From a virus, in the IMG/VR virus record IMGVR_UViG_3300037804_000367, positions 1 through 64,000 of that record: a stretch of 64,000 nt of DNA; one strand, 5' to 3'. The notes below the pieces were generated by a model. The model was not told the DNA's origin. It worked only from the letters and a program-made list of their open reading frames with translations, and searched no databases. Positions within the stretch are counted from its first letter, which is position 1; each line of letters opens with the position of its first letter. Shown here in pieces: positions 47,313 through 63,991 of this stretch. Made by a program: the position numbers and the translations under genes.

Positions 47313-47561
47313 TCATGATAGATGTTTCTTCATTTCAAATGCTAGATAATGATTATCAAAATCTTCTTGTGTGGAAAGAACAAGCATCTGTTTAATTATT
47401 AGTTCTTGTAACCCGCTTCTGAATCTAAACAACTCGCATTTGTTGGTCGTATTCTCCCATCCGACACATATCAATTTAAATAATTCATTGTCCCAATTGC
47501 TAGTTGTAACATAAATGGCCATTGTTCCATTTGACCAATATGTTTTGTTAAAGTTCATCAT
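47313..47561 (-). CDS. MxxHL-tail protein
   Basis: 82 residues. Beta-rich body (MAIYVTTSNWDNELFKLICV) and a C-terminal helix ending FEMKKHLS. It is one of about 23 proteins in 47-64 kb sharing this ending (see findings). Start uncertain (two adjacent ATGs, no strong ribosome-binding site). Confidence 0.55.
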   Translation of the reverse strand: MMNFNKTYWSNGTMAIYVTTSNWDNELFKLICVGWENTTNKCELFRFRSGLQELIIKQMLVLSTQEDFDNHYLAFEMKKHLS

Positions 47562-47577
47562 TGATGTTTGCTCGGTT

Positions 47578-47751
47578 CTATTTTAAAAACCAAAATATAA
47601 TCATCGCGTACCACGTTACATCAAGAAGCTTTCCAAATGTAGACTGAGCTACTGCGCGTCCGAACCAACCACACACTCTCATGTAAGAGTTTCTAACACC
47701 TAGTACGATACCATAACCAATTATTAATGATAGTAGAATTAGATTAATCAT
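47578..47751 (-). CDS. small membrane protein
   Basis: 57 residues (MINLILLSLIIGYGIVLGVR...), hydrophobic at both ends with a basic middle, so two short membrane segments are possible. Its ATG overlaps the stop of the 91-residue gene upstream. Confidence 0.5.
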   Translation of the reverse strand: MINLILLSLIIGYGIVLGVRNSYMRVCGWFGRAVAQSTFGKLLDVTWYAMIIFWFLK

Positions 47752-48019
47752 TTTTTATCTCCATTAATTGTTGCGTTGTTATTGTTCGGGAAACAAATTC
47801 ACATTTAACACCAACTGCTCTCATTTGTTCGACAGTCATCTTATCATGTTTATAACGTTTGATTTCTTTATTGTTAGTCAGGTCGTAAATGTAGTATGAT
47901 TTAAATGATAGCTTATTTGGAATTTTTAGACATTTAACTATTTTACCATCAATAAAGTATTCAATTTTTGATGTTGGAAATGGGGTAGCAAATCCATTAG
48001 GGGTTGAGTTGTTATCCAT
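47744..48019 (-). CDS. hypothetical protein
   Basis: 91 residues. SKIEYFIDGKIVKCLKIP and a helical end TTQQLMEIKND. It resembles the MxxHL-tail proteins in layout (strands then TTQQ helix) but lacks the final motif. No family recognised. Confidence 0.55.
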   Translation of the reverse strand: MDNNSTPNGFATPFPTSKIEYFIDGKIVKCLKIPNKLSFKSYYIYDLTNNKEIKRYKHDKMTVEQMRAVGVKCEFVSRTITTQQLMEIKND

Positions 48020-48021
48020 TT

Positions 48022-48249
48022 TTATTCACCCCAAGCACTTTTAATGTTTAGCATTCTAACAGCCATCTTTGCAAACTGACTATTGGCTCCGTCGTGCTTG
48101 TAACCAATACCTATAAGCAGAGCTACATCTTCTGTTTCTGCAATCATACTCAGTTCCTTTCCATCAACCACTGGCTTGAAGTAATTTATAACATCTAAAG
48201 ATGGAATATTATTTGCACCTGTGTTCTGATATTGTTTAACTGTAATCAT
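48022..48249 (-). CDS. hypothetical protein
   Basis: 75 residues, alpha/beta, no family recognised. Overlaps the start-side neighbour by 4 bases. Confidence 0.5.
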   Translation of the reverse strand: MITVKQYQNTGANNIPSLDVINYFKPVVDGKELSMIAETEDVALLIGIGYKHDGANSQFAKMAVRMLNIKSAWGE

Positions 48250-48503
48250 TTTTTGTACTCCTGGTTGTGTAAATGTTTACTCATCTGTTTTGTTAGTATG
48301 AATTGTTGAGCTGTTAGTTTATCAATTGTTCGCCAATGGCCTGGAATGTCATAGCTGACATGTTGCCATCCTAATATTGACAACCACTTATAATTAGTAT
48401 CCCCTTTGCTTGCAAACAATACAAAGTTTTTGTCATCGGAATAGTTTGTCAAGAAGAACTTGTTCATTGTGTCAACACATAATTTCTCTTTGACATCATT
48501 CAT
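48246..48503 (-). CDS. MxxHL-tail protein
   Basis: 85 residues from the ATG at 48503; longer readings run through the HNH gene. DDKNFVLFASKGDTNYKWLS then LTAQQFILTKQMSKHLHNQ: the shared C-terminal module, followed here by six extra residues. Confidence 0.5.
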   Translation of the reverse strand: MNDVKEKLCVDTMNKFFLTNYSDDKNFVLFASKGDTNYKWLSILGWQHVSYDIPGHWRTIDKLTAQQFILTKQMSKHLHNQEYKK

Positions 48504-48504
48504 T

Positions 48505-48909
48505 TTAACTACAACCCTTTTCGCCATTACACACTGTACACATGGTCTGCATGTTGCTAATGTTATTTGAACCACCATTACTCTTAGCCAGTATGTGATC
48601 TTTAGTCATGAGAACTTCATTACCATTTGAGTCCATACCGTACAGATTGATATGGTAACCTTTTTCAGTATAGTTTTTTTCAAGTGCTAAGAACTTACCT
48701 TTAGCTGAACACGCTACGCAATCAACTCCTTTTTCTTTAAAAGTTAATAACCGTAATGAAGACATGTTAATAGTTTCTCCATTAAGTTCAATATTTACTC
48801 TGTTTTTACTAGAAGTTTTGTTAGTAGCAAACTTTAAAATAGATAAATCTTCAAGTATGGAGTGACGGAAATACGTTGGTCTAGTTTTCTTTGTTGATTT
48901 CTTTTTCAT
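48505..48909 (-). CDS. HNH endonuclease
   Basis: 134 residues. CVACSAKGKFL, then a classical HNH core NEVLMTKDHILAKSNGGSNN and TMCTVCNGEKG with paired cysteines. Unlike the three HNH genes of the tRNA array it has no late promoter and lies in an early operon; it could be a restriction- or recombination-type nuclease or a homing endonuclease. Confidence 0.82.
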   Translation of the reverse strand: MKKKSTKKTRPTYFRHSILEDLSILKFATNKTSSKNRVNIELNGETINMSSLRLLTFKEKGVDCVACSAKGKFLALEKNYTEKGYHINLYGMDSNGNEVLMTKDHILAKSNGGSNNISNMQTMCTVCNGEKGCS

Positions 48910-48910
48910 T

Positions 48911-49291
48911 TTACATTGCTCTCAGTACAGAGGACACAGGGAGCTTGAATGATTTACCAGTGGCAACTTCAATAGCCATTACTGGATAACGTTTTGCTCT
49001 TGTGTTCCAACCACTGACCTTGAACTTCTTTGATTGTAAAGTTATGGTTGAATTAAGAAGAGACTTTTTGAGTCCGTGTCTTTCAGCATAGAAGTTCCAA
49101 GCCTCAACTTCTTTTGAATCAGCTACTGTACCATTTGCTTTGACGTCGAGGAACTCAACCTTCATTGAGAATTGTTCTTTATTATAAGAGGCGCGACCAG
49201 TTTTGAATTTAACACTATGTTTCTTTTCAATTTTCTTCATAGCAGCTTCCATGTCTTTGCGAATTGCATCAATCTTTGAAGTAGTAATCAT
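48911..49291 (-). CDS. conserved phage protein of unknown function
   Basis: 126 residues. KGxx-style ending GWNTRAKRYPVMAIEVATGK then FKLPVSSVLRAM is a pattern seen in uncharacterised phage proteins. First gene after the promoter at 49331, so early. Confidence 0.6.
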   Translation of the reverse strand: MITTSKIDAIRKDMEAAMKKIEKKHSVKFKTGRASYNKEQFSMKVEFLDVKANGTVADSKEVEAWNFYAERHGLKKSLLNSTITLQSKKFKVSGWNTRAKRYPVMAIEVATGKSFKLPVSSVLRAM

Positions 49292-49330
49292 ATTTGTGTC
49301 TCTCTTTTAATTTATTTTCTTACCTATTCT

Positions 49331-49358
49331 AATATAAGCCCTTAACAGGATAAGTCAA
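49331..49358 (-). promoter_or_regulatory. conserved early promoter (leftward)
   Basis: Minus-strand TTGACT (49358-49353), 16-base spacer, TATATT (49336-49331). Confidence 0.8.
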
Positions 49359-49366
49359 CAACAAAG

Positions 49367-49804
49367 TTAAACTAAATGCTTACTCATTTCAATATAAAGT
49401 AACACTTCGCTTGATGGGTCGTCAATATATTGAATAGCTTGACCATTTTGTTGCACGGACGCTAATTGAACTTCTCGAGAAGGGTCTTTTATATATTCAA
49501 TAGCGTGTCCATTTTGTTGTACAGCAGCAATTTGGACTTCTCGAGAAGGGTCTGTAATACATATAATAGCGTATCCATTTTCCTGCATAGCCACGAGTTG
49601 AACTTTTTGAGAAGGCTCTTTAATATATTGAATAGTGTGTCCATCTTGTTGCACAGCAGCTAGTTGGATTTCGAAAGATGGATTGTCAATATATTGAATT
49701 GTGTATTCGTCTTGTTGTACAGCTGCTAGTTGAATATCTTCACTAGGATTTTTAATAAATCTAATATCATATCCATCTAGTTGCACTTTCTGTAAGTCGG
49801 TCAT
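49367..49804 (-). CDS. DUF4116-like 22-residue repeat protein, MxxHL tail
   Basis: 145 residues: MTDLQKVQ cap, then six repeats of about 22 residues (YAIxYIxDPSxEVQLAAVQQ, then D/N-G), ending LLYIEMSKHLV. The repeat matches the DUF4116 pattern (VxLAAVxQNGxALxYA), a helical solenoid of unknown function. Overlaps the next repeat gene by 4 bases. Last of five tandem copies. Confidence 0.75.
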   Translation of the reverse strand: MTDLQKVQLDGYDIRFIKNPSEDIQLAAVQQDEYTIQYIDNPSFEIQLAAVQQDGHTIQYIKEPSQKVQLVAMQENGYAIICITDPSREVQIAAVQQNGHAIEYIKDPSREVQLASVQQNGQAIQYIDDPSSEVLLYIEMSKHLV

Positions 49805-50172
49805 GATAAATGTTCACTCATTTTAATAAAAAGTAACACTTCTTTACATGGATTGTCAATATATTGAATAGTGTATACATTTTGTTGTACAGCAGCAAGT
49901 TGAATTTCAATTGATGGATTGTTTATGTAGGTTATAGCATTTCCATATTGTTGTACAGCAGCAAGTTGAATTTCAATTGATGGATTGTCAATGAATCGAA
50001 TAACATACCCCTCTTGTTGTACAGCAGCAAGTTGAACTTCTCGAGAAGGGTCTTTAATATATTGAATAACATACCCCTCTTGTTGTACAGCAGCAAGTTG
50101 AACTTCTCGAGAAGGGTCTTTAATATATTGAATAGCATATCCACTTTGTTGTACTTTCTGTAAGTCGGTCAT
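49801..50172 (-). CDS. DUF4116-like repeat protein, MxxHL tail
   Basis: 123 residues, five repeats between the MTDLQKVQ cap and LLFIKMSEHLS. Two consecutive 66-base DNA repeats (about 49988-50119) are essentially identical, a sign of recent slippage or unequal recombination. Confidence 0.75.
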   Translation of the reverse strand: MTDLQKVQQSGYAIQYIKDPSREVQLAAVQQEGYVIQYIKDPSREVQLAAVQQEGYVIRFIDNPSIEIQLAAVQQYGNAITYINNPSIEIQLAAVQQNVYTIQYIDNPCKEVLLFIKMSEHLS

Positions 50173-50408
50173 GATAAATGTTCACTCATTTTAATAAAAA
50201 GTAACACTTCTTGAGAAGGGTCTTTTATACATTCAATAGCATATTCACTGTGTTGTACAGCGGCTAGTTGAATTTCAATTGAGGGATTGTTAATAAATTC
50301 AATATTATATCCATCTTGTTGCACAGCAGCTAGTTGGACTTCTCGAGATGGATTGTCAATGTATTGAATAGCATATCCATCTTGTTGTACTTTTTGTAAA
50401 TCAGTCAT
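50169..50408 (-). CDS. DUF4116-like repeat protein, MxxHL tail
   Basis: 79 residues, three repeats, cap MTDLQKVQ and tail LLFIKMSEHLS. Coupled by 4-base overlaps to both neighbours. Confidence 0.72.
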   Translation of the reverse strand: MTDLQKVQQDGYAIQYIDNPSREVQLAAVQQDGYNIEFINNPSIEIQLAAVQHSEYAIECIKDPSQEVLLFIKMSEHLS

Positions 50409-50644
50409 GATAAATGTTTACTCATTTTAATATAAAGTAAAACTTCGCTTGATGGATTGTTTATGTAGTTAATAGCATTTCCATATTGTTGTACAGCAGT
50501 TAGTTGGACTTCACGAGACGGATTGTTAATATATTCAATATTATATCCATCTTGTTGCACAGCAGATAGTTGAATTTCGATAGATGGATCTTTAATATAT
50601 AAAATAGCATATCCATTTTGCTGTACTTTTTGTAAGTCAGTCAT
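50405..50644 (-). CDS. DUF4116-like repeat protein, MxxHL tail
   Basis: 79 residues, three repeats, tail LLYIKMSKHLS. Same length as its downstream neighbour, so probably a recent duplicate. Confidence 0.72.
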   Translation of the reverse strand: MTDLQKVQQNGYAILYIKDPSIEIQLSAVQQDGYNIEYINNPSREVQLTAVQQYGNAINYINNPSSEVLLYIKMSKHLS

Positions 50645-51276
50645 AATATATGCTCACTCATTTTACAATGTAGCTTTACAACTTCAGATGGATTGTCAAT
50701 ATAATTAATAGTGTATACATTTTGTTGTACAGCGGCAAGTTGAATTTCACCTGATGGATTGTCTATGTAGTTAATAGCATATCCTCCTTGTTGAACAGCA
50801 GCTATTTGAATCGCTTCGCTTGGATCTTTAATATATTGAATGGCATAACTATTTTGCTGAACTGCGGCTAGTTGAATCTCTTTACTAGGATTGTTAATAT
50901 ATTTAATAGCATATCCACTTTGTTGTGCAGCAGCTAATTGAATCTCTTCAGACGGATTGTTAATATATTCAATTGAGTTTCCATCTTGGTGTACAGCTGC
51001 TAGTTGAATTACTTCACTAGGATTTTTAATAAATTGAATTGCATATCCATGTTGTTGAACAGCTACCAGTTGAATTAATTCAGATGGATTATCAATGTCT
51101 TGAATTGCATAACCATCTTGTTGTACAGCAGCTAATTGAACTTCTTCACTTGGATCTTTAATATATTGAATTGTAATTCCCTTTTGTCGTACAGCAGCTA
51201 GTGGGACTTCGATAGACGGATCTTTAATATCTCGAATAGCATATCCATTTTGCTGTACTTTTTGTAAGTCGGTCAT
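50641..51276 (-). CDS. DUF4116-like repeat protein, longest copy, MxxHL-type tail
   Basis: 211 residues, about nine repeats, ending KLHCKMSEHIL. First and longest of the five tandem copies; the shorter ones could derive from it by loss of internal repeats. Confidence 0.75.
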   Translation of the reverse strand: MTDLQKVQQNGYAIRDIKDPSIEVPLAAVRQKGITIQYIKDPSEEVQLAAVQQDGYAIQDIDNPSELIQLVAVQQHGYAIQFIKNPSEVIQLAAVHQDGNSIEYINNPSEEIQLAAAQQSGYAIKYINNPSKEIQLAAVQQNSYAIQYIKDPSEAIQIAAVQQGGYAINYIDNPSGEIQLAAVQQNVYTINYIDNPSEVVKLHCKMSEHIL

Positions 51277-51287
51277 TGTGTCCTCTT

Positions 51288-51575
51288 TTATAATTCGACA
51301 CTACTGTTTGCTACATGTTGCTTTATTCTTTTAGCTAGGCCTTTGCCACCAGCGTCTACTTCTTGTAAGATGTTTTGAACAAGTGATTCCATAAACATAG
51401 TTTGTTCTCTTTCTAACTCTAACTCTCTATACTTGCGCGTAGCTAATTCTTGTTGTGCCATTCTTTCATTGGCCATAAACGATATACACTCTTGTGTACT
51501 GATATAATCAATGTCTGTTTTGAATTCAAACTGTAACTCTTGTTGTAATAAAACTTTAGTTGCAAACTCGGTCAT
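51288..51575 (-). CDS. hypothetical coiled-coil protein
   Basis: 95 residues, almost entirely helical (ERMAQQELATRKYRELELER), possible coiled coil. Upstream of the repeat-protein cluster; no family recognised. Confidence 0.55.
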   Translation of the reverse strand: MTEFATKVLLQQELQFEFKTDIDYISTQECISFMANERMAQQELATRKYRELELEREQTMFMESLVQNILQEVDAGGKGLAKRIKQHVANSSVEL

Positions 51576-51603
51576 GTTAATATCTCCAGTGTTTAATTTA
51601 ACT

Positions 51604-52131
51604 TTACTTCTTTCTAAATTTAGTAATTATTCTTACATGCAAGCATTGGATATTATATCCGCCTGCATAGATTGCTTCGACACTCATGACAAATTTGTCA
51701 TTGACTAGAAACTCAAAGCAGAATTGAGACTCAACTGTCTTTACAAATGTATCAATTGCTTCGCCGTCTAGTTTCTTTAGAGCTTTTGCTTCAAGTCCCT
51801 TTGCACAATTGTACCACTTCTTGTTGAATACTTTTTCGACATGCTCAATCTGGTAATCTTCTCTACAAAAGATATAATCTTGGTCGGCACGAGCAACGTT
51901 TGCATATTTCCACTCAAGTGAACACTGACTAACCATTTGATCTCTTTTAGAACGAGGCACAGGACGACAACCAGTTATACCAAACTTATCAAGCTTCTCT
52001 GCATTCCAAAGCTCATCGAGTTGATTCATCTTAGCTCTTGCGTTTGCATAAAACTCAAGCTTCTTTTTCTTTTGAATTTCAAAGTGTGGCTTGATTGCTA
52101 GTTTGATTTGGTCAAGTGCTGTCATAATCAT
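51604..52131 (-). CDS. hypothetical protein
   Basis: 175 residues. N-terminal helices (KKKLEFYANARAKMNQLDEL), then an alpha/beta part; no family recognised. First gene after the promoter at 52164. Confidence 0.6.
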   Translation of the reverse strand: MIMTALDQIKLAIKPHFEIQKKKKLEFYANARAKMNQLDELWNAEKLDKFGITGCRPVPRSKRDQMVSQCSLEWKYANVARADQDYIFCREDYQIEHVEKVFNKKWYNCAKGLEAKALKKLDGEAIDTFVKTVESQFCFEFLVNDKFVMSVEAIYAGGYNIQCLHVRIITKFRKK

Positions 52132-52163
52132 CTTCCTTTTACATTTTCTTTCTTACCTATATT

Positions 52164-52192
52164 AATATACACTCACAACTGCAATTAGTCAA
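52164..52192 (-). promoter_or_regulatory. conserved early promoter (leftward), 17-base spacer
   Basis: Minus-strand TTGACT (52192-52187) and TATATT (52169-52164). The only one of the set with a 17-base spacer and a diverged spacer sequence. Confidence 0.72.
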
Positions 52193-52212
52193 GCTGTTTT
52201 ATACAGTTTATA

Positions 52213-52247
52213 CAAAAAAAGATCCAATTAAATTAATAATTGGATCT
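52213..52247 (-). terminator. intrinsic terminator (leftward)
   Basis: 11-bp stem AGATCCAATTA / TAATTGGATCT with a 6-base loop; on the minus strand a T7 run follows. Ends the small-gene operon whose last gene stops at 52279. Confidence 0.9.
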
Positions 52248-52278
52248 AGTATCTCCAGGTAAGAAGAAAATATGTTAT

Positions 52279-52584
52279 CTAAATGTTAATCTGTCTACAT
52301 GCCTTATCAAAATCTGCTTGCAATTGTTCTAGAGTAGGCCAATTTTCTCTGGCTAGATGTTTCCTCATATGTTGTTCAAGTATTTGTATTTCAAAAATCT
52401 TTTTTGATAGTTGTATATCTGTTATGTCTTGTTCATTTGATTGTAAAAAAGTTGATAAGTGAAAATATTCCCAATAGGAATGTTTTTCATTGTATCGTTC
52501 TACTTCCAAACTTTTTAAATCGCGTGTACGAATGTAAAGGATATCGTGTAAGTAGTTAGAGCTAATCCTCATAAAGTAAAACAT
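52279..52584 (-). CDS. MxxHL-motif protein with C-terminal extension
   Basis: 101 residues. EIQILEQHMRKHLAREN carries the shared motif internally (about 73-77), followed by 24 residues (TLEQLQADFDKACRQINI). Last gene of its operon. Confidence 0.55.
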   Translation of the reverse strand: MFYFMRISSNYLHDILYIRTRDLKSLEVERYNEKHSYWEYFHLSTFLQSNEQDITDIQLSKKIFEIQILEQHMRKHLARENWPTLEQLQADFDKACRQINI

Positions 52585-52586
52585 AA

Positions 52587-52904
52587 TTAGTCCAAGTGTT
52601 TTGACATCGCTTTGTTTAACTCATAATGTTCCATGTCTTCTTTTTGCTTATCAGTTAGAGAGTTGTTTACTTTTACACAATACAATTCAACTGAGTTTGG
52701 TCTCATGTTATCATTTAAGTGTCCCACCCCATCTCTATTTTTCATTAAGCAATAAGGAATTTCAAACAGAGCCATCTTTGGTTTGCCTTGTTGTGTATAT
52801 TCATAACCAGTAAAGATTCCAATTCTCATTCCGTATCCTTTATCGCTACTCGGGATAGCAACAATGTCACCTTTTTCAATTGTATTTCCTAACATGTCTG
52901 TCAT
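52587..52904 (-). CDS. MxxHL-tail protein
   Basis: 105 residues. The body looks like a small beta-barrel (GNTIEKGDIVAIPSSDKGYG, RIGIFTGYEY), perhaps SH3-like; it ends YELNKAMSKHLD. Confidence 0.58.
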   Translation of the reverse strand: MTDMLGNTIEKGDIVAIPSSDKGYGMRIGIFTGYEYTQQGKPKMALFEIPYCLMKNRDGVGHLNDNMRPNSVELYCVKVNNSLTDKQKEDMEHYELNKAMSKHLD

Positions 52905-52920
52905 AAGTTTGCCTTTTAAT

Positions 52921-53175
52921 TTAAATGTTCGTGTTTAGATATTGTCGCATTTTATTTAATGTTTGATAGTGTTCGCGCTTAACAAAATCATATTTTACAT
53001 CGCCAAGACCATTGCCCTTTAAGAACAAATCAAATACTTCAGTGGACATTTTAGTTTGGTGATTGTGAGTGTCGTAGTCGAACAACTTTATTTCATTGTT
53101 CTTCTCATAGAACATATAGAATGATACAACACCGTTACATGTCTTCATTATTAAATCATTAGCTGGATATTTCAT
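52921..53175 (-). CDS. 80-residue family protein (copy 1)
   Basis: 84 residues. Strand-rich N-terminus (LIMKTCNGVVSFYMFYEKNN), VKYDFVKREHYQTLNKMRQY at the end, a diverged form of the shared tail. One of five tandem paralogues in 52921-54385 (KYDxV/KFEYV then TxxQ and M-x-x-H-L). Confidence 0.58.
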   Translation of the reverse strand: MKYPANDLIMKTCNGVVSFYMFYEKNNEIKLFDYDTHNHQTKMSTEVFDLFLKGNGLGDVKYDFVKREHYQTLNKMRQYLNTNI

Positions 53176-53420
53176 TATACTAAATGCTCGCTCATTGCTT
53201 TGTAAGTTATCATCTGTTCTTTAGTAACAAAATCATATTTGGTTCCTTGAAACCCTTCTAGGAATGATTTGAATAGATTCCTTGATGGTTGTGTACTTAT
53301 TTCAGCGGTTCCATAATAGTATAACATTATCCAATCACATTTTGGACCTAGATCTTTAATATTATAAAAACTTATTTTAGATCCTTTGGTTTTCATTATA
53401 ATATTTGTTCGGTCAATCAT
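53175..53420 (-). CDS. 80-residue family protein (copy 2), MxxHL tail
   Basis: 81 residues: TNIIMKTKGSKISFYNI, SRNLFKSFLEG, TKYDFVTKEQMITYKAMSEH then LV. Shares PSRNxF with copy 5 at 54140. Confidence 0.6.
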   Translation of the reverse strand: MIDRTNIIMKTKGSKISFYNIKDLGPKCDWIMLYYYGTAEISTQPSRNLFKSFLEGFQGTKYDFVTKEQMITYKAMSEHLV

Positions 53421-53421
53421 T

Positions 53422-53682
53422 TTAAACCATCTTTGTTAAATGCTTTCTCATTTTGGAATATGTATTTATTTGGTCTTCAGTAATGTAATCATACTTCTCT
53501 ACTTTAGTACCTTTTAAGTTTGTTTGAAATTGATCAGCTGTTAGTTTGATTCTGCTCATTGGACCATTAGCAGCACGTATTTCAAACAGTTCGATGTCGG
53601 TAGTTTCTTTGGTCCACACTTGAAAGAATGAAACAATGTTTGTTTTGTAATGTGTTACCATTATGAAAGTTCTTTTGCCCAT
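53422..53682 (-). CDS. 80-residue family protein (copy 3), MxxHL tail
   Basis: 86 residues: TNIVSFFQVW, LKGTKVEKYDYITEDQ, NTYSKMRKHLTKMV. Same layout as its neighbours. Confidence 0.6.
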   Translation of the reverse strand: MGKRTFIMVTHYKTNIVSFFQVWTKETTDIELFEIRAANGPMSRIKLTADQFQTNLKGTKVEKYDYITEDQINTYSKMRKHLTKMV

Positions 53683-53683
53683 G

Positions 53684-53935
53684 TTAAACTTCCTTATCTA
53701 AATGTTCGTTCATTTTCTTTAATGTTTTCATTTGTGTTTCAGAAACGTATTCAAACTTTACTCCATTCAATCCTCTAAGCAATGCTTGGAACACATGTGG
53801 CGTTAGTTTAGTATGTTCGTCAGGTGGTCTTCCAAACTCATATAACAATACAGACTGATTTGGTTTACCAGCTAGTACAGAATAGAATCTTATTTTGTTA
53901 CCTTCCGTTTCCATAATGATTTCAAGATCGTTCAT
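53684..53935 (-). CDS. 80-residue family protein (copy 4), MxxHL tail
   Basis: 83 residues: IIMETEGNKIRFYSV, VFQALLRGLNGVKFEYVSET, KTLKKMNEHLDKEV. Confidence 0.6.
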   Translation of the reverse strand: MNDLEIIMETEGNKIRFYSVLAGKPNQSVLLYEFGRPPDEHTKLTPHVFQALLRGLNGVKFEYVSETQMKTLKKMNEHLDKEV

Positions 53936-54132: not shown

Positions 54133-54139
54133 TATGTTG

Positions 54140-54385
54140 TTACCTTGTTAAATGCTCTTGCATCTTTTGATAAGTTGCTACCCACTCTTCAGTAACCCAG
54201 TCATACTTTATTCCTGGTTTACCTTTTAGGAAATTATCAAACATGTTTCTTGAGGGATGTAAATGTAATTGCGGAGATCCAAACATAAACATTTTTACTC
54301 TTCCCATTTTTGAATCGTAGTCTTCTATTGTAAAGAAGTCTATCTTTTCGTTTTGAGTTCTCTGTATAATGTTTGTTTGTTTCAT
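54140..54385 (-). CDS. 80-residue family protein (copy 5), MxxHL tail
   Basis: 81 residues: TNIIQRTQNEKIDFFTIEDY, PSRNMFDNFLKGKPGIKYDW, VTEEWVATYQKMQEHLTR. Confidence 0.6.
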   Translation of the reverse strand: MKQTNIIQRTQNEKIDFFTIEDYDSKMGRVKMFMFGSPQLHLHPSRNMFDNFLKGKPGIKYDWVTEEWVATYQKMQEHLTR

Positions 54386-54387
54386 TT

Positions 54388-54843: not shown

Positions 54844-55203
54844 TTATAATAAATGTTTTTTCATTTTTTGTTCTAAAAAGTAAGAGTTTAATGCTGGGTT
54901 CCAAATGTGTTTGTGATTTGGACAATATTTTGGTAAGTATTTTCTACATGATAATACAAATGTTTTTGTATCAAACCACTTTTCGAAATGCTCACTACAG
55001 AACATTATCAGTAATTTACATTCGATTGATGACATTGTCATGTTTTGTGGGTCAAACCATTTATCAAAATGCTCATGACAGTTTTGTATTAGTAAAGGAT
55101 AATGAGACCAATTAAATTTGTCCTTGTCAAACCATTGATCAAAATGCCAATTGTGTTTCTTTAACCACTCTCTAGTATATTGTATTTTCATTTTAATCCA
55201 CAA
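54844..55203 (-). CDS. HFDKWF-repeat protein, MxxHL tail
   Basis: 119 residues built of about three repeats of ~31 residues, each with HFDxWFDxxxF and a following CxEHF (for example NCHEHFDKWFDPQNMTMSS). It ends FLEQKMKKHLL. The first lines resemble the protein at 63620-63991 (YTREWLKKHNWHFDQW versus YTNEWFSANARHFDEW), so these two are paralogues. No known repeat family recognised. Confidence 0.6.
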   Translation of the reverse strand: MWIKMKIQYTREWLKKHNWHFDQWFDKDKFNWSHYPLLIQNCHEHFDKWFDPQNMTMSSIECKLLIMFCSEHFEKWFDTKTFVLSCRKYLPKYCPNHKHIWNPALNSYFLEQKMKKHLL

Positions 55204-55459
55204 AATATTTTTTCATTTTTTGTTCAAGAGTTTGTATTTGTACTTGTTTGTTCATTTCGCTTTGTGTAATCTCGATATCTTTTTTATGCATTCCGACAGC
55301 AACTAAAGGACTCCAAGATTTTTTTACCCATTCTTTTTGTTCCAAATTCCACTTGTAAATTGTATTTGGAGATTGTAACACAAACAAACTTATTTGTTTA
55401 TTTGTATGAGTTCGTTTCCAATATTTAAATTCAATTGCTGTCATATTACTATCTACCAT
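55193..55459 (-). CDS. MxxHL-type tail protein
   Basis: 88 residues. Strand-rich body (TIYKWNLEQKEWVKKSW) and tail IQTLEQKMKKYFVD, where H-L has become Y-F. Overlaps the next gene by 11 bases. Confidence 0.55.
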   Translation of the reverse strand: MVDSNMTAIEFKYWKRTHTNKQISLFVLQSPNTIYKWNLEQKEWVKKSWSPLVAVGMHKKDIEITQSEMNKQVQIQTLEQKMKKYFVD

Positions 55460-55946: not shown

Positions 55947-55971
55947 TCACTTTCCTTGTTTAGATGCTTTG

Positions 55972-57699: not shown

Positions 57700-57700
57700 G

Positions 57701-57961: not shown

Positions 57962-57999
57962 GATTTTTTCCTTATTAATTTATCTTTCTTACCTATTAT

Positions 58000-58027
58000 A
58001 GTATAAGCCCTTAAACAAATAAGTCAA
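58000..58027 (-). promoter_or_regulatory. conserved early promoter (leftward)
   Basis: Minus-strand TTGACT (58027-58022), 16-base spacer, TATACT (58005-58000). Confidence 0.8.
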
Positions 58028-58040
58028 CTTCAAAGTAACT

Positions 58041-58187
58041 TTATTTTGGTAGTTTTGATTCACATTGTAGACAACGGAAGCATCTTCCCTTTTGGCTCTC
58101 TATACAGAAACCTGGATTTGGTCTGAATTGTTCAAGAGGCTTTATCGTGTGACAAATGTAACAGTTCTTTTCGTCTGGTTTGTTCAT
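58041..58187 (-). CDS. small zinc-finger protein
   Basis: 48 residues: CYICHTIKPLEQFRPNPG, then GRCFRCLQCES, a CxxC...CxxC finger of the kind often found in front of HNH domains but standing alone here. Overlaps the upstream gene's stop by 4 bases. Confidence 0.6.
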   Translation of the reverse strand: MNKPDEKNCYICHTIKPLEQFRPNPGFCIESQKGRCFRCLQCESKLPK

Positions 58188-58396
58188 GTTAAGTGTTTTC
58201 TCATCTTTCGTTCAAGCAACCGTTCGTTTAATAATCGTATACCGTTTTGCTCACTGCCAACTTCTGGATAGCTTAATTGAGTTCTACTATATTGTCCCCT
58301 ACTCCATTTTCCATTTTTATAGAATTCTGTTTTGGGATTTGGAAATTGAGTATTAACTTTAAAAAGTGTTACTCCTGATAAGTGATAAGTGGTCAT
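58184..58396 (-). CDS. MxxHL-tail protein
   Basis: 70 residues: strand-rich start (HLSGVTLFKVNTQFPNPKTE) and tail RLLERKMRKHLT. Confidence 0.58.
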   Translation of the reverse strand: MTTYHLSGVTLFKVNTQFPNPKTEFYKNGKWSRGQYSRTQLSYPEVGSEQNGIRLLNERLLERKMRKHLT

Positions 58397-58397
58397 C

Positions 58398-58598
58398 TTA
58401 ATGTCCTATCCAATAGTAGTCGCCACATGAAACTCTTTGTTGGTTTGTATCAGCAGCAACTTTATCTAACAACTCTTGAGAGGAATTTGAACTATGAAAC
58501 AGCTCTCCGTTCTTCAACATAATGTGACGGTGTTTACTGAATATGCTACCAGTTTTTAATTCGTATTCATTTCCGCCTTTTGTGTACTTCCATAACAT
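58398..58598 (-). CDS. hypothetical protein
   Basis: 66 residues from the ATG at 58598 (GAGGT site 7 bases upstream); an upstream start would overlap the neighbouring gene. Beta-rich, ends GDYYWIGH. No family recognised. Confidence 0.5.
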   Translation of the reverse strand: MLWKYTKGGNEYELKTGSIFSKHRHIMLKNGELFHSSNSSQELLDKVAADTNQQRVSCGDYYWIGH

Positions 58599-58603
58599 AA
58601 TGA

Positions 58604-58846
58604 TTACCTCGATTGTTGTTCGTTTATTAAACCTTCCCAATATGAAATCTGTTTATCTATTCCTCTCAGCTGACATCCAACATAATGATCTCCGTCAATA
58701 CTAGCTTGAACGTTTGTGATGTTGCAATGTATGCAATGAGGGTAGTACACTGTGTCGTCCCAACAATTATCGTGTTTGATAATTAACTTGTTAAGCATGT
58801 TGTTTAATCTAGTTAATGTTGGGACGCAATTATCTTTCATTTTCAA
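58604..58846 (-). CDS. hypothetical protein
   Basis: 80 residues; YYPHCIHCN and a helix on each side. AAGGA site 8 bases upstream. No family recognised. Confidence 0.5.
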   Translation of the reverse strand: MKMKDNCVPTLTRLNNMLNKLIIKHDNCWDDTVYYPHCIHCNITNVQASIDGDHYVGCQLRGIDKQISYWEGLINEQQSR

Positions 58847-58851
58847 TTCCT

Positions 58852-58935
58852 TTAATCTAATACAAAGTATGCTACAACCATTGCAAGTATGTTACACCAT
58901 GCTAACAATATACCAATGTAAATTAAATATTGCAT
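58852..58935 (-). CDS. possible membrane micropeptide
   Basis: 27 residues (MQYLIYIGILLAWCNILAMV...), one hydrophobic segment, filling the gap between two genes. Ribosome-binding site weak, so only tentative. Confidence 0.3.
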   Translation of the reverse strand: MQYLIYIGILLAWCNILAMVVAYFVLD

Positions 58936-58936
58936 T

Positions 58937-59311
58937 TTATCTTTTCACAGGGTCTTGGAATTTGTACACTAATGTGAAGTCAACATTTCCATAGAAGTCT
59001 CTCTTGAACTTCTTTTCAACTGTAAAATGATTATTGACTTTCTTTGCATCTGTTGACGAGTACACTGTGTCGTCACCTTTAACCTTCCATGATACATAGT
59101 CATTAGATCTCAAAACTTGTTCAATGGCTATTGGTTCATTTGGTTCTTTACTTTCATAAGTTATTTCACATGGAATAAACCAGAAGGCTACTACTTGTAA
59201 CATTATTCCAATTACTATTAAAAAAGGATCAAAATCATTCTTTATCCCAAAAATAATTATCGTAATTCCTATTACACTAAATACTATCATTATCAATGCT
59301 ATTACTACCAT
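58937..59311 (-). CDS. membrane protein
   Basis: 124 residues: two N-terminal transmembrane helices (about 2-23 and 28-47) then a soluble beta domain (SWKVKGDDTVYSSTDAKK). GAGGT site upstream. Function unknown. Confidence 0.58.
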   Translation of the reverse strand: MVVIALIMIVFSVIGITIIIFGIKNDFDPFLIVIGIMLQVVAFWFIPCEITYESKEPNEPIAIEQVLRSNDYVSWKVKGDDTVYSSTDAKKVNNHFTVEKKFKRDFYGNVDFTLVYKFQDPVKR

Positions 59312-59334
59312 GTTTACTACCTCTTTGTTTTTAT

Positions 59335-59500
59335 TAATTTAAAAAGAAAAGGCTTTCCACCTTTATGTCGGGTTTGCCCTCTGCGGTTCCGAGGTCGAAC
59401 TATTAAGCTGATTACAGCACCATTACTGGTAAGGTAGCCACCGAACTATTAAACTGCAGTCTTGACCACAAGGGAATACGGGCCACAGTTCTCATACGTC
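59335..59500 (-). ncRNA. structured small RNA candidate with terminator
   Basis: About 165 bases of G/C-richer non-coding sequence. On the minus strand two copies of TTAATAGTTCG lie about 50 bases apart (near 59450 and 59402), and the 3' end is AAAGG-TGGAAAG-CCTTT-TCTTTTT, an intrinsic terminator. No open frame. Probably an independent or 3'-derived small RNA, or a translational control element for the membrane gene downstream. Confidence 0.5.
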
Positions 59501-59502
59501 AT

Positions 59503-59760
59503 TTAATATCGTTTTAAGATTGAATCAAATACAAATTTTGGTAAAGGGATTCGATTTCGATTGTCATTGTAATATTGACCTTCACCTTTCTCTCCAGTAC
59601 TTTCATACCAATCAACTCTATAAGATCCTTCATCAGTTTTTTCAATTACTTTAAAAATTGTTTCTGGAATAGTTTCATCAGTGCCAATCAAAGTCTCGTG
59701 AGGGTTTAACCAATAGGTACCTGGTTCCATTTGTGTCTTACCGTGAGGGAAGTCTTTCAA
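59503..59760 (-). CDS. hypothetical protein
   Basis: 85 residues from a TTG start at 59760 with AGGAG about 7 bases upstream; no ATG fits. Beta-rich (TYWLNPHETLIGTDETIPET). No family recognised. Confidence 0.52.
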   Translation of the reverse strand: MKDFPHGKTQMEPGTYWLNPHETLIGTDETIPETIFKVIEKTDEGSYRVDWYESTGEKGEGQYYNDNRNRIPLPKFVFDSILKRY

Positions 59761-59762
59761 AA

Positions 59763-60113
59763 TTAAGCTCCTTTTTTAAAGTAAACAGCATTGATTCTGG
59801 TTTCGGTTTCATGCCAAATGATTCCGTCAATAAAGTTCCATTGTTCAATCCAAACCTTCTCAGTTGGGTCATTAGCTAATTTGATAAGAGAATTGATCTT
59901 ACGAGAAACAGCTTTGTCGCTGACTTCATCTTCTGTGATTTTATATCCACGATCTATGCTTTGCTGTTCAACTTCACTAGACTTGTATTTGTAATTTCCA
60001 TTACATCCGCACATGCAACCTAGATTCCCACTATAAGAACTATGGATAGTAGATTTTAATTCGTTGATCATTTCCTGGCTTGCTTCAATTTTGACAGCTT
60101 CTTTCATTTTCAA
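59763..60113 (-). CDS. conserved phage protein
   Basis: 116 residues. NLGCMCGCNGNYKYKSSE (about 31-48), followed by an all-helical/beta end, is a pattern I have seen in several unrelated phages' uncharacterised proteins. First gene after the promoter at 60139. Confidence 0.6.
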   Translation of the reverse strand: MKMKEAVKIEASQEMINELKSTIHSSYSGNLGCMCGCNGNYKYKSSEVEQQSIDRGYKITEDEVSDKAVSRKINSLIKLANDPTEKVWIEQWNFIDGIIWHETETRINAVYFKKGA

Positions 60114-60138
60114 TTCCTTTTATTTTCTTACCTATTAT

Positions 60139-60166
60139 ACTATACGCCCTTAAATAGATAAGTCAA
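60139..60166 (-). promoter_or_regulatory. conserved early promoter (leftward)
   Basis: Minus-strand TTGACT (60166-60161), 16-base spacer, TATAGT (60144-60139). Confidence 0.8.
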
Positions 60167-60179
60167 CATGAAACGTAAA

Positions 60180-60419
60180 TTAATCTTTGTAAAGTTTAGT
60201 AACAGAAGTGTCCGCATATACTATTTTTTGAGGACTCGTTACTCTGAGATCTTCGCCTAAAAGTTTGTACACTAATTGGTGGTTATGGCCACCACCCCAA
60301 TTTTGCTCAGATTCTGTATCTACTGTAATACCATGTTTTAGTTGAAGATCTTTTAGTTCTTTCTTAAATGCATCTAGGCGGGTTTTATATTCGCCTCTTA
60401 CTTGAGATAATATTTTCAT
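60180..60419 (-). CDS. hypothetical protein
   Basis: 79 residues; a basic helix, then ESEQNWGGGHNHQLVYKLLG. No family recognised. It lies 1 base after the 87-residue gene. Confidence 0.52.
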   Translation of the reverse strand: MKILSQVRGEYKTRLDAFKKELKDLQLKHGITVDTESEQNWGGGHNHQLVYKLLGEDLRVTSPQKIVYADTSVTKLYKD

Positions 60420-60420
60420 T

Positions 60421-60684
60421 TTACAGACATCCAGTTATAACTGCTGTTTCATATGAACGATCAGACTTTTTGTGTTCTTGTGTTGGATTGTTCTTTCTTT
60501 CTTGTGCACACATTTCATAGATTGCATTTTCTTCGCGAATCTCTTGCTCGAGTTCTTCCTGTGTCAGCTCTATATCGAATTTCCACAACATCCACTGTTT
60601 ATAAACTTTACTGCTAGCAGAAGGCATTGGCGATGCATAGAATTTTAAATTTAAGTATTGTCTTTTTAAGAATTTTATCATCAT
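60421..60684 (-). CDS. hypothetical protein
   Basis: 87 residues; basic start, then a strongly acidic helix (LTQEELEQEIREENAIYEMC). AAGGA site. First gene after the promoter at 60722. Confidence 0.52.
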   Translation of the reverse strand: MMIKFLKRQYLNLKFYASPMPSASSKVYKQWMLWKFDIELTQEELEQEIREENAIYEMCAQERKNNPTQEHKKSDRSYETAVITGCL

Positions 60685-60721
60685 CTGTTTCCTTTTAATG
60701 TTTATCTTTTTTACCTGTTCT

Positions 60722-60749
60722 AATATACACCCTGAACTAGATAAGTCAA
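60722..60749 (-). promoter_or_regulatory. conserved early promoter (leftward)
   Basis: Minus-strand TTGACT (60749-60744), 16-base spacer, TATATT (60727-60722). Confidence 0.8.
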
Positions 60750-60762
60750 CATCAAAAGGTAA

Positions 60763-61035
60763 TTATTTATCCAAATGTTTTCTCATTTGTTTAAAAAGTT
60801 TCTGTTCCTCGTGCCAATCATCATACTTCTGTTTTGTCGAAAGACAAATATCTTTCTTTTTCATTGACTTCTTCACCCAGTCCTTTCCATAGTGTATAAA
60901 TGTTCTCAGTTCTGTTTTAAAATAGAACTGATCTTTTTCAAACTTTTCACATTTACAAATCATGTAATTTTTACCACCCCACTTTACCCTGAAGTATTTA
61001 CCTATCCATTTTTTATTCCCACCATACTTTTTCAT
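60763..61035 (-). CDS. MxxHL-tail protein
   Basis: 90 residues, lysine- and aromatic-rich (KWIGKYFRVKWGGKNYMICK), tail EQKLFKQMRKHLDK. Confidence 0.58.
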   Translation of the reverse strand: MKKYGGNKKWIGKYFRVKWGGKNYMICKCEKFEKDQFYFKTELRTFIHYGKDWVKKSMKKKDICLSTKQKYDDWHEEQKLFKQMRKHLDK

Positions 61036-61346
61036 CGATAATTGCTGAATAAATTTTGCATAAACTTTTGTTGATCTTCAGACCCTTCCCAACAAGCTTC
61101 ACATCTCATATGCTTATTTTGAATCAATGCATCATTACATTTGATACAAATTTCCTTAGTGGGTTTTGCGGATTTAACTTTCATGGTGACATCACGATCG
61201 TCATCAAAGGTGCTACATGATGACCACGCGACAGTATTGATACTGCCTTTTTTAGCTAAGTCTTTTTTATCTCTACACACCACTCTTACTTTCTGAGTGA
61301 ATGTAAACTCGACATCATATACTTTGTATTCATCTTTTTTACTCAT
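61032..61346 (-). CDS. hypothetical protein with zinc-ribbon
   Basis: 104 residues; a beta-rich N-terminus (YDVEFTFTQKVRVVCRD) and CIKC...CEAC at about 70-85, a likely zinc ribbon. No family recognised. Confidence 0.55.
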   Translation of the reverse strand: MSKKDEYKVYDVEFTFTQKVRVVCRDKKDLAKKGSINTVAWSSCSTFDDDRDVTMKVKSAKPTKEICIKCNDALIQNKHMRCEACWEGSEDQQKFMQNLFSNYR

Positions 61347-61391
61347 TTTTAATTTCCTTTAATCTATTTTTCATGAAGTAGAGTATTTAAT

Positions 61392-61709
61392 TTAAACTGC
61401 ATCTAGTGCCTTCTTCATTTTCGGATCATCCCAACCTGGATTATCGTCTATGTATTTTACCATCACAAAATTAAGCTTCTTCTCATCGTGCTCTTCTTGT
61501 GTACATGACACATATTGCATTACAAAATCTTTCAATGAAAGTGTAATCATATTGTTGTTCATTCCTTGAAATGTAATACAAGTAGTGTTTTCATTTCCGT
61601 CGAAGTAGAAAGTTTTTACAACGTTTACGATTGAAATATATTGATACATCTTAGTTGAAAACCTTGTTTGATCTTCAATCGACTTCCAGTATTTTTGTGA
61701 AATATCCAT
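61392..61709 (-). CDS. hypothetical protein
   Basis: 105 residues; central strands (VVKTFYFDGNENTTCITFQG). The end (WDDPKMKKALDAV) may be a diverged MxxHL tail (M-K-K-A-L). No family recognised. Confidence 0.52.
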   Translation of the reverse strand: MDISQKYWKSIEDQTRFSTKMYQYISIVNVVKTFYFDGNENTTCITFQGMNNNMITLSLKDFVMQYVSCTQEEHDEKKLNFVMVKYIDDNPGWDDPKMKKALDAV

Positions 61710-61716
61710 GTTGTTC

Positions 61717-62001
61717 CTAGTTTAAATAATGAGCCATCTTTTTATCAAGTACAAACCTGTCAAATTGTTCCTTTGTTATTTCATAAAATGATTTATGTTT
61801 TACGAGTGACATGAACCACTTAACTCCCATTGACAGTGATAGCATATCAGGAGTCTGTATGAATACAGAAGTGCTAGTTATTTTATGAATAAAAATACAA
61901 TCATGAAACGTGGTTGAATTAAAATACTTGTTTTTGTATTTTTTATTAAGGTGTTTTATTCGTAACGCTTTTGATTTTCTTTTTTGTGTTTTAGATTTCA
62001 T
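61717..62001 (-). CDS. MxxHL-type tail protein
   Basis: 94 residues; very basic N-terminus, strands (FHDCIFIHKITSTSVFIQTP), then ITKEQFDRFVLDKKMAHYLN, the shared module with M-A-H-Y-L. Confidence 0.57.
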   Translation of the reverse strand: MKSKTQKRKSKALRIKHLNKKYKNKYFNSTTFHDCIFIHKITSTSVFIQTPDMLSLSMGVKWFMSLVKHKSFYEITKEQFDRFVLDKKMAHYLN

Positions 62002-62216
62002 TACAAGTGCTTTTTCATTTCTCGTTCTAATTTAAATTCTTGTATTTCTGTTTTACTTATTTTACAATCATGTGGGTGTTCTCCAAATCGATCAGACAAA
62101 TTAGCATGCCCAGACCAGACCTGTCCTTTTGTAAACAACTCAATGCGTCCGTCTTCGAATTGTCGCATTAGAAACTTACTTTGTGGATTGTGAAATGTTC
62201 TGAAAAAGTAAATCAT
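62001..62216 (-). CDS. MxxHL-tail protein
   Basis: 71 residues; strands (FLMRQFEDGRIELFTKGQ) and ISKTEIQEFKLEREMKKHL, the module ending exactly at the stop codon. Confidence 0.58.
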   Translation of the reverse strand: MIYFFRTFHNPQSKFLMRQFEDGRIELFTKGQVWSGHANLSDRFGEHPHDCKISKTEIQEFKLEREMKKHL

Positions 62217-62425
62217 TTTGTTTTAAATTTTACTTTACATTTCTTTGCTTCGGGAATATATAGATCATCATCGGACAGTATACTCATGGTATCTAACTCT
62301 CCATCACACCATTCAATAGCTAAAAAGATATCATCTATCTTTTTATAAGTGTGAAAATATAGAGACGGTTTAGGATCATCTCGTTCGCCCATTGGCCATT
62401 CATATGTTTTGTTTACTTTAAGCAC
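62213..62425 (-). CDS. hypothetical protein
   Basis: 70 residues, beta-rich, acidic centre (WCDGELDTMSILSDDDLY). No family recognised; overlaps both neighbours. Confidence 0.5.
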   Translation of the reverse strand: MLKVNKTYEWPMGERDDPKPSLYFHTYKKIDDIFLAIEWCDGELDTMSILSDDDLYIPEAKKCKVKFKTK

Positions 62426-62807
62426 TTTTAAAATCCTCGTGTAGACCTGCTAATCCAATTTTAACAGAATGTAAATGGTTTTTGATTAGAGAGCAAACAT
62501 AGCCAGTTTGATCAATAGGTTTTTTGGGAATCATTTCAGGTTGGTTTATACGTTTGGCCATCCATGTCATAACTTCATGAGTGCATTCGTTCATTACCTT
62601 AAACGCAATTTTGTCACTGACTTCCTGTTCGATCAATGCTAGTGCAACTTGCTTTCCGATTATATAAATAGGTGAACAGTCATTTGTATTAAAACCAGGT
62701 TTAAAATGATCAGCTAATGCCTTCTCGATTTTATTCTCTAACCGTTTGATTTTTTTCTTTTCCAACATTCTCTGATGATTTCTGATGTTCTCTTTTTTGG
62801 AACTCAT
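62418..62807 (-). CDS. hypothetical protein
   Basis: 129 residues, helical, basic start (KKENIRNHQRMLEKKKIKRL). No family recognised. First gene after the promoter at 62839. Confidence 0.55.
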   Translation of the reverse strand: MSSKKENIRNHQRMLEKKKIKRLENKIEKALADHFKPGFNTNDCSPIYIIGKQVALALIEQEVSDKIAFKVMNECTHEVMTWMAKRINQPEMIPKKPIDQTGYVCSLIKNHLHSVKIGLAGLHEDFKSA

Positions 62808-62838
62808 ATTAATCGTCCTGTTATTTTTTACCTATTCT

Positions 62839-62866
62839 AATATACACCCTTAACTAGATAAGTCAA
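62839..62866 (-). promoter_or_regulatory. conserved early promoter (leftward)
   Basis: Minus-strand TTGACT (62866-62861), 16-base spacer, TATATT (62844-62839). Best match to the family consensus. Confidence 0.82.
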
Positions 62867-63114
62867 CTACAAATCAAATGTTTTTTCATCGTTTGTTCTA
62901 AAATGTGAGTGGTCACTTCTGCCTTTTTTACAATAGTGCATTGTTTAAGTATTGATTTGTCAGCTGACCATTTAATAACCCACTGCAAGGTTTGTTCGTT
63001 TAAGCTAAAGATATTTTTATGTTCTGTTCTTAAATATCGTATTTCATTCTCAACTACAAGGCTACCACTTGCGGTAGTACCATACAATCTTCTTTTGCGC
63101 TTATAATATTTCAT
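62863..63114 (-). CDS. MxxHL-tail protein
   Basis: 83 residues; basic start (YYKRKRRLYG), strands, then VTTHILEQTMKKHLICS. Its stop overlaps the -35 of the promoter at 62839. Confidence 0.57.
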   Translation of the reverse strand: MKYYKRKRRLYGTTASGSLVVENEIRYLRTEHKNIFSLNEQTLQWVIKWSADKSILKQCTIVKKAEVTTHILEQTMKKHLICS

Positions 63115-63623
63115 GACAAGTGTTCCTTCATTTTACGATCTAATATATACTGATCATACTTGAGTTTTGAAATTTCCTTTATTTGATTATATTCCAAATT
63201 AGTATGAATAAATTCTGCTGAATCGCCATAGCTATTAGGTATAGTGAAAGGACTTTCAAAATAAAACGTGTTATTATTATAACCAGTACATTGATAACAT
63301 GGGTCACCGTGATAATAAAACATCTGAAAGAATTTACCAATAAGTAGTTTACTTTTATTGTCAATTGTATCTTGATGAGATTTCATTTTGATAAAGGTCT
63401 TTGCTTGGTTGTAAAATTGTTTAGTTGTAGGCTTGTACAATTTTTCGAAATCTCGAACAGATTCTACAAACACAAATCCATTACAACATTTTAAAGTAAC
63501 CCACTCGTGTAAAGCATTTTCATCATGGTCCCAATTAGTATCATATTGCTCTAATGTTACTGCGACACAAACATCGTGGTCATGAGAGGTCCAATATGAT
63601 TTTAACAAATTATTATAGTTCAT
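63111..63623 (-). CDS. MxxHL-tail protein
   Basis: 170 residues, the longest non-repeat member. The beta-rich body appears to contain two similar halves (VTLKCCNGFVFVESVRDFEK; FYYHGDPCYQCTGYNNNTFY), tail ISKLKYDQYILDRKMKEHLS. Confidence 0.58.
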   Translation of the reverse strand: MNYNNLLKSYWTSHDHDVCVAVTLEQYDTNWDHDENALHEWVTLKCCNGFVFVESVRDFEKLYKPTTKQFYNQAKTFIKMKSHQDTIDNKSKLLIGKFFQMFYYHGDPCYQCTGYNNNTFYFESPFTIPNSYGDSAEFIHTNLEYNQIKEISKLKYDQYILDRKMKEHLS

Positions 63624-63991
63624 ATTAAATGCTCACTCATCTTTTCTTCTAATTGCTGTTCAATAATTTGTTGCTTGGAATGATCGAATCTATTTTCATC
63701 ATACCATTTGTCTATGTGCTGTAGACAGTGCCTCTGAAGGTAACCACCAAATTGCAACACTTTTGCACCTGGTCTTATATTCCATTTGTATGACAAGTAT
63801 TCAGATGCTAGTTCACCGAACCTCAAACCATTCCAATCGAAAGTGTCACTATTAAACCATTTATCAAAATGATCACTGCAATGAATACACAACATACTCA
63901 CTGAAGTTAATGGGAATGTTTGTTCAGAGTACCACTCGTCAAAGTGACGAGCATTAGCTGAGAACCATTCATTTGTGTATTCAATTTTCAT
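63620..63991 (-). CDS. HFDKWF-repeat protein, MxxHL tail
   Basis: 123 residues. Repeats of HFDEWYSEQTF, CSDHFDKWFNSDTFDW and CLQHIDKWYDENRFD, tail QQLEEKMSEHLI. Paralogue of 54844-55203. Close to the right edge; the ATG at 63991 appears complete. Confidence 0.6.
   Translation of the reverse strand: MKIEYTNEWFSANARHFDEWYSEQTFPLTSVSMLCIHCSDHFDKWFNSDTFDWNGLRFGELASEYLSYKWNIRPGAKVLQFGGYLQRHCLQHIDKWYDENRFDHSKQQIIEQQLEEKMSEHLI

Follow-up and report, generated by a model that had tools for sequence, protein, structure and literature searches.

The window analysed here is a stretch of 64,000 nucleotides, the first 64 kb of the 128,786-bp IMG/VR virus record IMGVR_UViG_3300037804_000367; the remainder of the record was also analysed. 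Gene calling was mechanical and gave a genome set of 269 genes. Judged by these genes, the source virus looks like a tailed phage: its replicative helicase is akin to the T4-like ones, and it has a ribonucleotide reductase and 27 tRNA genes. From position 47313 onwards, the minus strand of the window carries a series of genes whose products share a short C-terminal element (hereafter the tail), the core motif of which is L-x-x-[KE]-M-x-x-[HY]-[LIM], located 0–8 residues before the stop. A sequence-only reading of the window had reported such an ending, M-x-x-H-L, in 23 genes, all of which were confirmed. The 19 genes that it had listed by their end coordinate indeed finish in M-x-x-H-L or M-x-x-H-I at most seven residues from the stop. 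Its three diverged forms are present as MRQYL (52921), MKKYF (55193) and MAHYL (61717), and so is the internal copy in gene 52279. Designated by their lower coordinate, the genes are arranged as follows.

47313..47561, minus strand: singleton body, tail LAFEMKKHLS
48246..48578, minus strand: singleton body, tail LTKQMSKHL plus 7 residues; start uncertain, the open reading frame overlapping the upstream HNH gene at 48505-48909
49367..49804, minus strand: DUF4116 repeats, tail LYIEMSKHLV
49801..50172, minus strand: DUF4116 repeats, tail LFIKMSEHLS
50169..50408, minus strand: DUF4116 repeats, tail LFIKMSEHLS
50405..50644, minus strand: DUF4116 repeats, tail LYIKMSKHLS
50641..51276, minus strand: DUF4116 repeats, tail LHCKMSEHIL
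52279..52584, minus strand: internal tail copy LEQHMRKHL followed by 24 residues, 15.5 bits with the tail profile
52587..52904, minus strand: body matching PHROG 8247 and 2251 (unknown function), tail LNKAMSKHLD
52921..53175, minus strand: 80-residue family, diverged tail TLNKMRQYL plus 4 residues
53175..53420, minus strand: 80-residue family, tail TYKAMSEHLV
53422..53682, minus strand: 80-residue family by full-length alignment (no phmmer match with the body alone), tail TYSKMRKHLTKMV
53684..53935, minus strand: 80-residue family, tail TLKKMNEHLDKEV
54140..54385, minus strand: 80-residue family, tail TYQKMQEHLTR, on the last helix (66-79) of the AlphaFold2 model
54844..55203, minus strand: HFDKWF repeat family, tail LEQKMKKHLL
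55193..55459, minus strand: singleton body, diverged tail LEQKMKKYFVD
58184..58396, minus strand: singleton body, tail LERKMRKHLT
60763..61035, minus strand: singleton body, tail LFKQMRKHLDK
61717..62001, minus strand: singleton body, diverged tail LDKKMAHYLN
62001..62216, minus strand: singleton body, tail LEREMKKHL directly at the stop
62863..63114, minus strand: singleton body, tail LEQTMKKHLICS
63111..63623, minus strand: singleton body (170 residues), tail LDRKMKEHLS
63620..63991, minus strand: HFDKWF repeat family, tail LEEKMSEHLI; tailed genes continue past the window

The M-x-x-H-L module of the sequence-only reading proved to be real, but the set of tailed genes is larger than claimed, as it continues outside the window, and more residues are conserved. 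Across the record, 37 genes carry the tail, in addition to the internal copy in 52279 and a degenerate copy in 77594, which ends in MSKHREK; both copies were recovered by a tail profile trained on neither. The tailed genes of the same strand beyond the window are 63991-64767, 65090, 65383, 66175, 66706, 67316, 72146, 72513, 72938, 73347, 73756, 76652, 90902 and 96078, with a diverged form in 96410. A 31-kb stretch holds 34 of the 37, which are found among the 86 minus-strand genes at 47–78 kb; outside of it, only 3 of about 180 genes are tailed. The conserved unit extends beyond M-x-x-H-L and includes Leu at position -4 and Lys at position -1. With the register fixed on Met, 36 of the 37 tails have His or Tyr at +3 and 30 have Leu at +4; before the Met, 31 have Leu at -4 and 24 have Lys at -1.

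A chance origin of the tail was rejected by shuffling, by control phage genes and by a scan of body clusters. The pattern M..H[LIM] was detected at most seven residues from the stop in 31 genes, where 0.31 were expected from its internal rate, and 1,000 shuffles of the last 25 residues gave a mean of 0.46 and a maximum of 3. Near the stop, L...M..[HY][LIM] occurs in 29 of the 269 genes and in none of 1,998 control phage genes (controls numbering about 2,000, drawn from a few dozen phage records and partial genomes), so that the possibility raised by the sequence-only reading, that such a tail is common in phage proteins at large, does not hold. In an unsupervised scan of gapped triplets, where each body cluster was counted once, L...M..H and M..HL ranked at the top with 14 body clusters each, compared with 0.18 and 0.25 expected, respectively.

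After removal of the tails, the carriers formed three families by sequence, next to about 17 other bodies without any match elsewhere in the genome; 53422, which full-length alignment places in the 80-residue family, is counted among these 17. DUF4116 repeats are present in six tailed genes (five at 49367-51276 and one at 90902). The same genes are the only ones with a DUF4116 (PF13475) profile match above the curated cut-off, and the match lies in the bodies, not in the tail. Eleven tailed genes contain HFDKWF repeats; a further HFDKWF gene, 74407, is without tail. The HFDKWF protein 73347 was predicted by AlphaFold2 as an alpha-alpha solenoid with a predicted local distance difference test score (pLDDT) of 94, in which the tail lies on a terminal helix (115-139); in the other repeats, the second helix is much shorter. 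The model of the 80-residue protein 54140 (pLDDT 83) has the order beta-beta-beta-beta-alpha-beta-alpha. Fold searches gave no significant structural match for either model, and no credible Pfam family was found for the HFDKWF, 80-residue and singleton proteins scanned. Defence-system models did not match the HFDKWF proteins, and no HFDKWF protein was confirmed in bacterial genomes. At least three unrelated body types have the same tail, namely DUF4116 repeats, the all-alpha HFDKWF solenoid and a small beta fold. The earlier suggestion that the tail is placed on unrelated bodies is borne out by sequence, and the two modelled families differ in predicted fold. Simple paralogy of all carriers was rejected for the DUF4116, HFDKWF and 80-residue bodies; among the singleton carriers paralogy is still conceivable.

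Codon choice, spacing and RNA folding of the tail genes point to selection on the protein level. His is encoded by CAT in 22 tails and by CAC in 9, and Leu at +4 by TTA (17), TTG (8), CTA (4) and CTT (1); synonymous variation was also seen at Ser +1, Lys -1 and Leu -4. The distance from the stop to the next start ranges from -17 to +98, and the 3' ends of five tail genes were predicted to fold no better than shuffles. Since the codons vary and the RNA appears unstructured, selection would act on the peptide. A nucleic-acid element, that is a ribosome-binding, coupling or recombination site which incidentally encodes M-x-x-H-L, might explain why, for many tail genes, the following start codon adjoins the gene or lies within it, and why Leu +4 is biased to TTA/TTG (25 of 30, p = 0.009). 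Its probability is nevertheless negligible. A profile scan found no convincing tail copies outside gene ends, the motif being confined to in-frame gene ends, and the codon variation at His, Ser, Lys and both Leu, the variable gaps and the lack of RNA structure largely ruled out a ribosome-binding or recombination site.

The sequence-only reading had also considered a common 3' cassette to which new bodies were fused. Such an origin is only hinted at, by two tail subtypes within one body family and a modest excess of codon sharing. Identical codons between families exceeded the expectation by 18%, which is only a hint of common descent of the tail DNA because the family pairs are not independent. 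The two tail subtypes of the HFDKWF family are unrelated over the 14 residues preceding Met (mean score of -1.0 between subtypes, 27.7 and 20.6 within), yet M-x-x-[HY]-L, or something close to it, is kept in both; certain singleton tails are similar to one or other of the subtypes. A constant core in changed surroundings fits replacement of 3' ends, strong selection on the core, or both.

The tail genes are probably early, as early-type promoters are present and no late motif was found on their strand; this supports the early character that the sequence-only reading had given to the tailed proteins. A highly conserved early-type promoter like TTGACTTATCTAnTTAAGGGTGTATATTAnAATAGGTAAGAAA occurs in 21 minus-strand copies in the record, several of them in the tail region:

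47255..47282, minus strand: early-type promoter TTGACTTATC...TATATT
49331, 58000, 60139, 60722 and 62839, minus strand: further early-type promoter copies in the window
43399 and 68378, minus strand: other early-type promoter copies in the record

The T4-type late motif TATAAATA is enriched ahead of other genes: 11 of its 22 occurrences precede a start, compared with 0 of 17, 2 of 13 and 4 of 19 for permuted controls, the last two of which partly overlap the real motif. On the minus strand, which carries the tail genes, no T4-type late motif was detected from about 39.65 to 99.46 kb.

No close relative of the phage was found among GenBank phages or in IMG/VR, where very near records may lie outside the search set. 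The helicase as query gave no relatives and NrdA only remote ones with at most 51% identity; the larger NrdA-related record contained no HFDKWF protein. No exact tail was found in other IMG/VR viruses with a DNA pattern encoding L..KM..HL-x-stop, by which 7 of the window's tails are recovered. The pattern occurred at 21 places in IMG/VR, which were rejected as chance, all lying in stop-to-stop frames of at most 31 codons. Searches for a known motif or for solved structures with the tail were negative, and the open-licence papers searched yielded no account of a module of this kind. Sequence comparison indicates that relatives of the DUF4116 and HFDKWF bodies are present in other phages without the tail. 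While the five window genes and 90902 belong to DUF4116, the DUF4116 proteins of SCTP-2 and Atu_ph07 and 59 others listed from IMG/VR loci have other endings. The HFDKWF protein of IMGVR_UViG_3300025161_000006 (L018) matches the family profile with E = 4.7e-30 and has the same repeat, but it ends in ...KYALKILNKKLN without the motif and has a different N-terminal domain. DUF4116 genes are common in uncultured phages (loci L108-L168), often as tandem arrays with lineage-specific terminal caps such as NPTINVKLVAKLLS, NPTISVQMLAKLLS and VKILAELCKEYA.

Shared endings were also searched in 20 other phage records or partial genomes, some of which had been found via DUF4116 arrays. In three of them, which are phages by gene content, small proteins without detectable similarity between their bodies share a C-terminal helix that is particular to the phage and differs from the tail:

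G015 (127 kb; L171, L174, L175): shared ending LIxKLxS or LIxKLER
G018 (65 kb; L180-L183): shared ending MLxMLEQ
G016 (70 kb; L176-L179): shared ending LFKLRWG

With bodies collapsed, the best scores were 47.5 for the source phage, 28.1 for G015, 34.6 for G016 and 29.8 for G018, compared with shuffle maxima of 11.5–13.3; mid-protein windows of the genes of G015, G016 and G018 reached at most 13.0 in the motif scan. The 17 other records and partial genomes (T4, RaK2, phage G, SCTP-2, Atu_ph07 and VP-1 included) gave no comparable shared tail. Marginal signals were obtained for G017, G019, G021, G023 and phage G, the last being chance-like; the other DUF4116 phages, G017 and G019-G024, gave no signal or a marginal one, and the partial genomes of T4, RaK2, SCTP-2 and Atu_ph07 had no shared tail above shuffles. 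In the source phage and in G015, the DUF4116 tails are closer to the other tails of the same phage than to the tails of other phages. G016 has a run of neighbouring DUF4116 genes (L176:13666-16619), most of which end in ...VKxLAE[LM]CK, an ending distinct from the LFKLRWG one. For G015, G016 and G018, the small bodies may still have a remote ancestor in common. The case is strongest for the source phage, since its body types clearly differ. The different tails of these phages move the focus away from a single module and towards a type of module that is particular to each phage.

The interpretation favoured here, which is given about an even chance of being correct, is that the tail is a phage-specific C-terminal docking helix joining diverse early effectors to a single shared partner. 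Many early proteins would carry the same plug, L-x-x-[KE]-M-x-x-[HY]-L, on their last amphipathic helix, while each body (DUF4116 repeats, HFDKWF solenoid, small beta fold or singleton) would have a different target or job. All tailed proteins would be brought to a single hub protein, of phage or host, via the same surface. We infer helix binding, one partner for all members and bodies acting as the variable, target-recognising part. Docking is preferred because the tail is common to unrelated bodies and absent from control genes and from homologous bodies elsewhere, and because L, M, H/Y and L are kept while the preceding residues change between HFDKWF subtypes. It is also preferred because codons vary, promoters are early-type and three other phages have different shared tails. 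Several observations weigh on the other side. The search found no partner, known motif or solved relative, nor did it yield a related phage whose orthologues would show how well the tail is conserved compared with the body. For the small beta proteins, the tail may be the helix on which the body packs. Moreover, the DUF4116 tails of G016 are unlike the other tails of that phage, and G018 is ambiguous in this respect. A wider proposal, held tentatively and clearly less probable than docking in the source phage, is that in some phages a private C-terminal plug on dozens of unrelated early proteins represents a phage-specific interaction code, in which all effectors of a phage would dock on one hub, and plug and hub would change together between lineages, as suggested by the different endings (KMxxHL in the source phage, LIxKLxS in G015, MLxMLEQ in G018, LFKLRWG in G016).

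Among the alternatives, a relic of a fold or structural cap is the least unlikely, although it is considered doubtful. Most carriers would derive from a single small strand-plus-helix protein; the body would have diverged until it was no longer recognisable, and the tail would be the best-kept helix of that protein, spread to other genes by 3'-end recombination and serving folding rather than a partner. In many singletons a strand is indeed followed by an S/T capping residue and the helix, as in the modelled 80-residue family, and the tails of the other phages likewise come after a strand; the codon-sharing excess between families and the similarity of some singleton tails to one or other HFDKWF subtype agree with this as well. 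However, the DUF4116 proteins and the HFDKWF solenoid are not strand-plus-helix proteins, the final helix of the solenoid much exceeds the other repeat helices, and a specific His across unrelated bodies is not expected of a packing helix.

Self-association, where the tail would be a homotypic or heterotypic helix assembling the tailed proteins together, is improbable: hydrophobic residues spaced at 0, 4 and 7/8 suit contacts between helices and the members are encoded together, but the roughly 1.5 conserved heptads are short for a stable coiled coil. Equally improbable is a degron by which Lon, ClpXP or another host protease would rapidly remove early proteins. The 0–8 residues after the motif and the internal copy are unlike degrons read from a free terminus, and the endings differ between phages although such proteases are conserved; what speaks for a degron is the C-terminal position and the early-type expression of proteins that are perhaps wanted briefly. 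Lower still is the probability of a capsid-targeting signal, by which tailed proteins would be packaged in the head and injected. The capsid targeting tag of T4 is N-terminal and cleaved, whereas the tail is C-terminal, and the tail-gene strand has many early-type promoters and, from about 39.65 to 99.46 kb, no T4-type late motif. The logic of one tag on diverse bodies is nonetheless that of the T-even internal proteins, diverse anti-restriction proteins with a common capsid targeting sequence (PMC3012670).

The T-even internal proteins and the poxvirus ankyrin/F-box adaptors are the closest working analogies to the tailed proteins, and neither is a family match. The former resemble the tailed proteins in having one short terminal sequence on diverse small host-directed phage proteins (PMC3012670). 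Their tag serves head packaging, whereas the shared element described here is C-terminal instead of N-terminal and belongs to genes with early-type promoters and no late motif. Poxvirus ankyrin-repeat/F-box (PRANC) proteins combine a variable repeat body with a common C-terminal dock, in many paralogues per virus, and would thus work as proposed for docking (PMC9414399). The element here differs in its length of about 10–20 residues and in its presence on non-repeat bodies, and no F-box or PRANC Pfam match was found among the tailed proteins scanned. To our knowledge, bacteria have no ubiquitin ligase, which is a further difference from the poxvirus F-box adaptors. SPO1 Gp53, an adaptor-like phage protein of ClpCP, shows that takeover proteins of phages can serve a host machine as adaptors; it is a single protein, with no shared tail described in the part of the source consulted (PMC6873191).

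The record has further features. The tRNA cluster extends over 28785-35615; one of its 27 genes has no readable anticodon, and small HNH-like open reading frames lie between them. A QueC-like gene was located at 43726-44415 of the window. Between tail genes, 74841-75572 encodes a protein with a type IV pilin-like N-terminal methylation motif (PF07963, E 1.9e-9), which may be of host origin. Genes resembling an NAD-dependent sugar epimerase/dehydratase (L010:7892-8893) and a transglutaminase (L009:15384-16157) were also identified in the phage record.

Most early phage proteins are of unknown function and are studied singly. If the tail were a relic of a fold instead of a dock, it would still mark gene families that are missed by body-based searches. 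As other phages have private endings too, docking can be tested by comparison. If docking is true, the tail offers a sequence handle for takeover proteins; tens of early proteins would act via one partner, and finding that partner would explain the whole early region.

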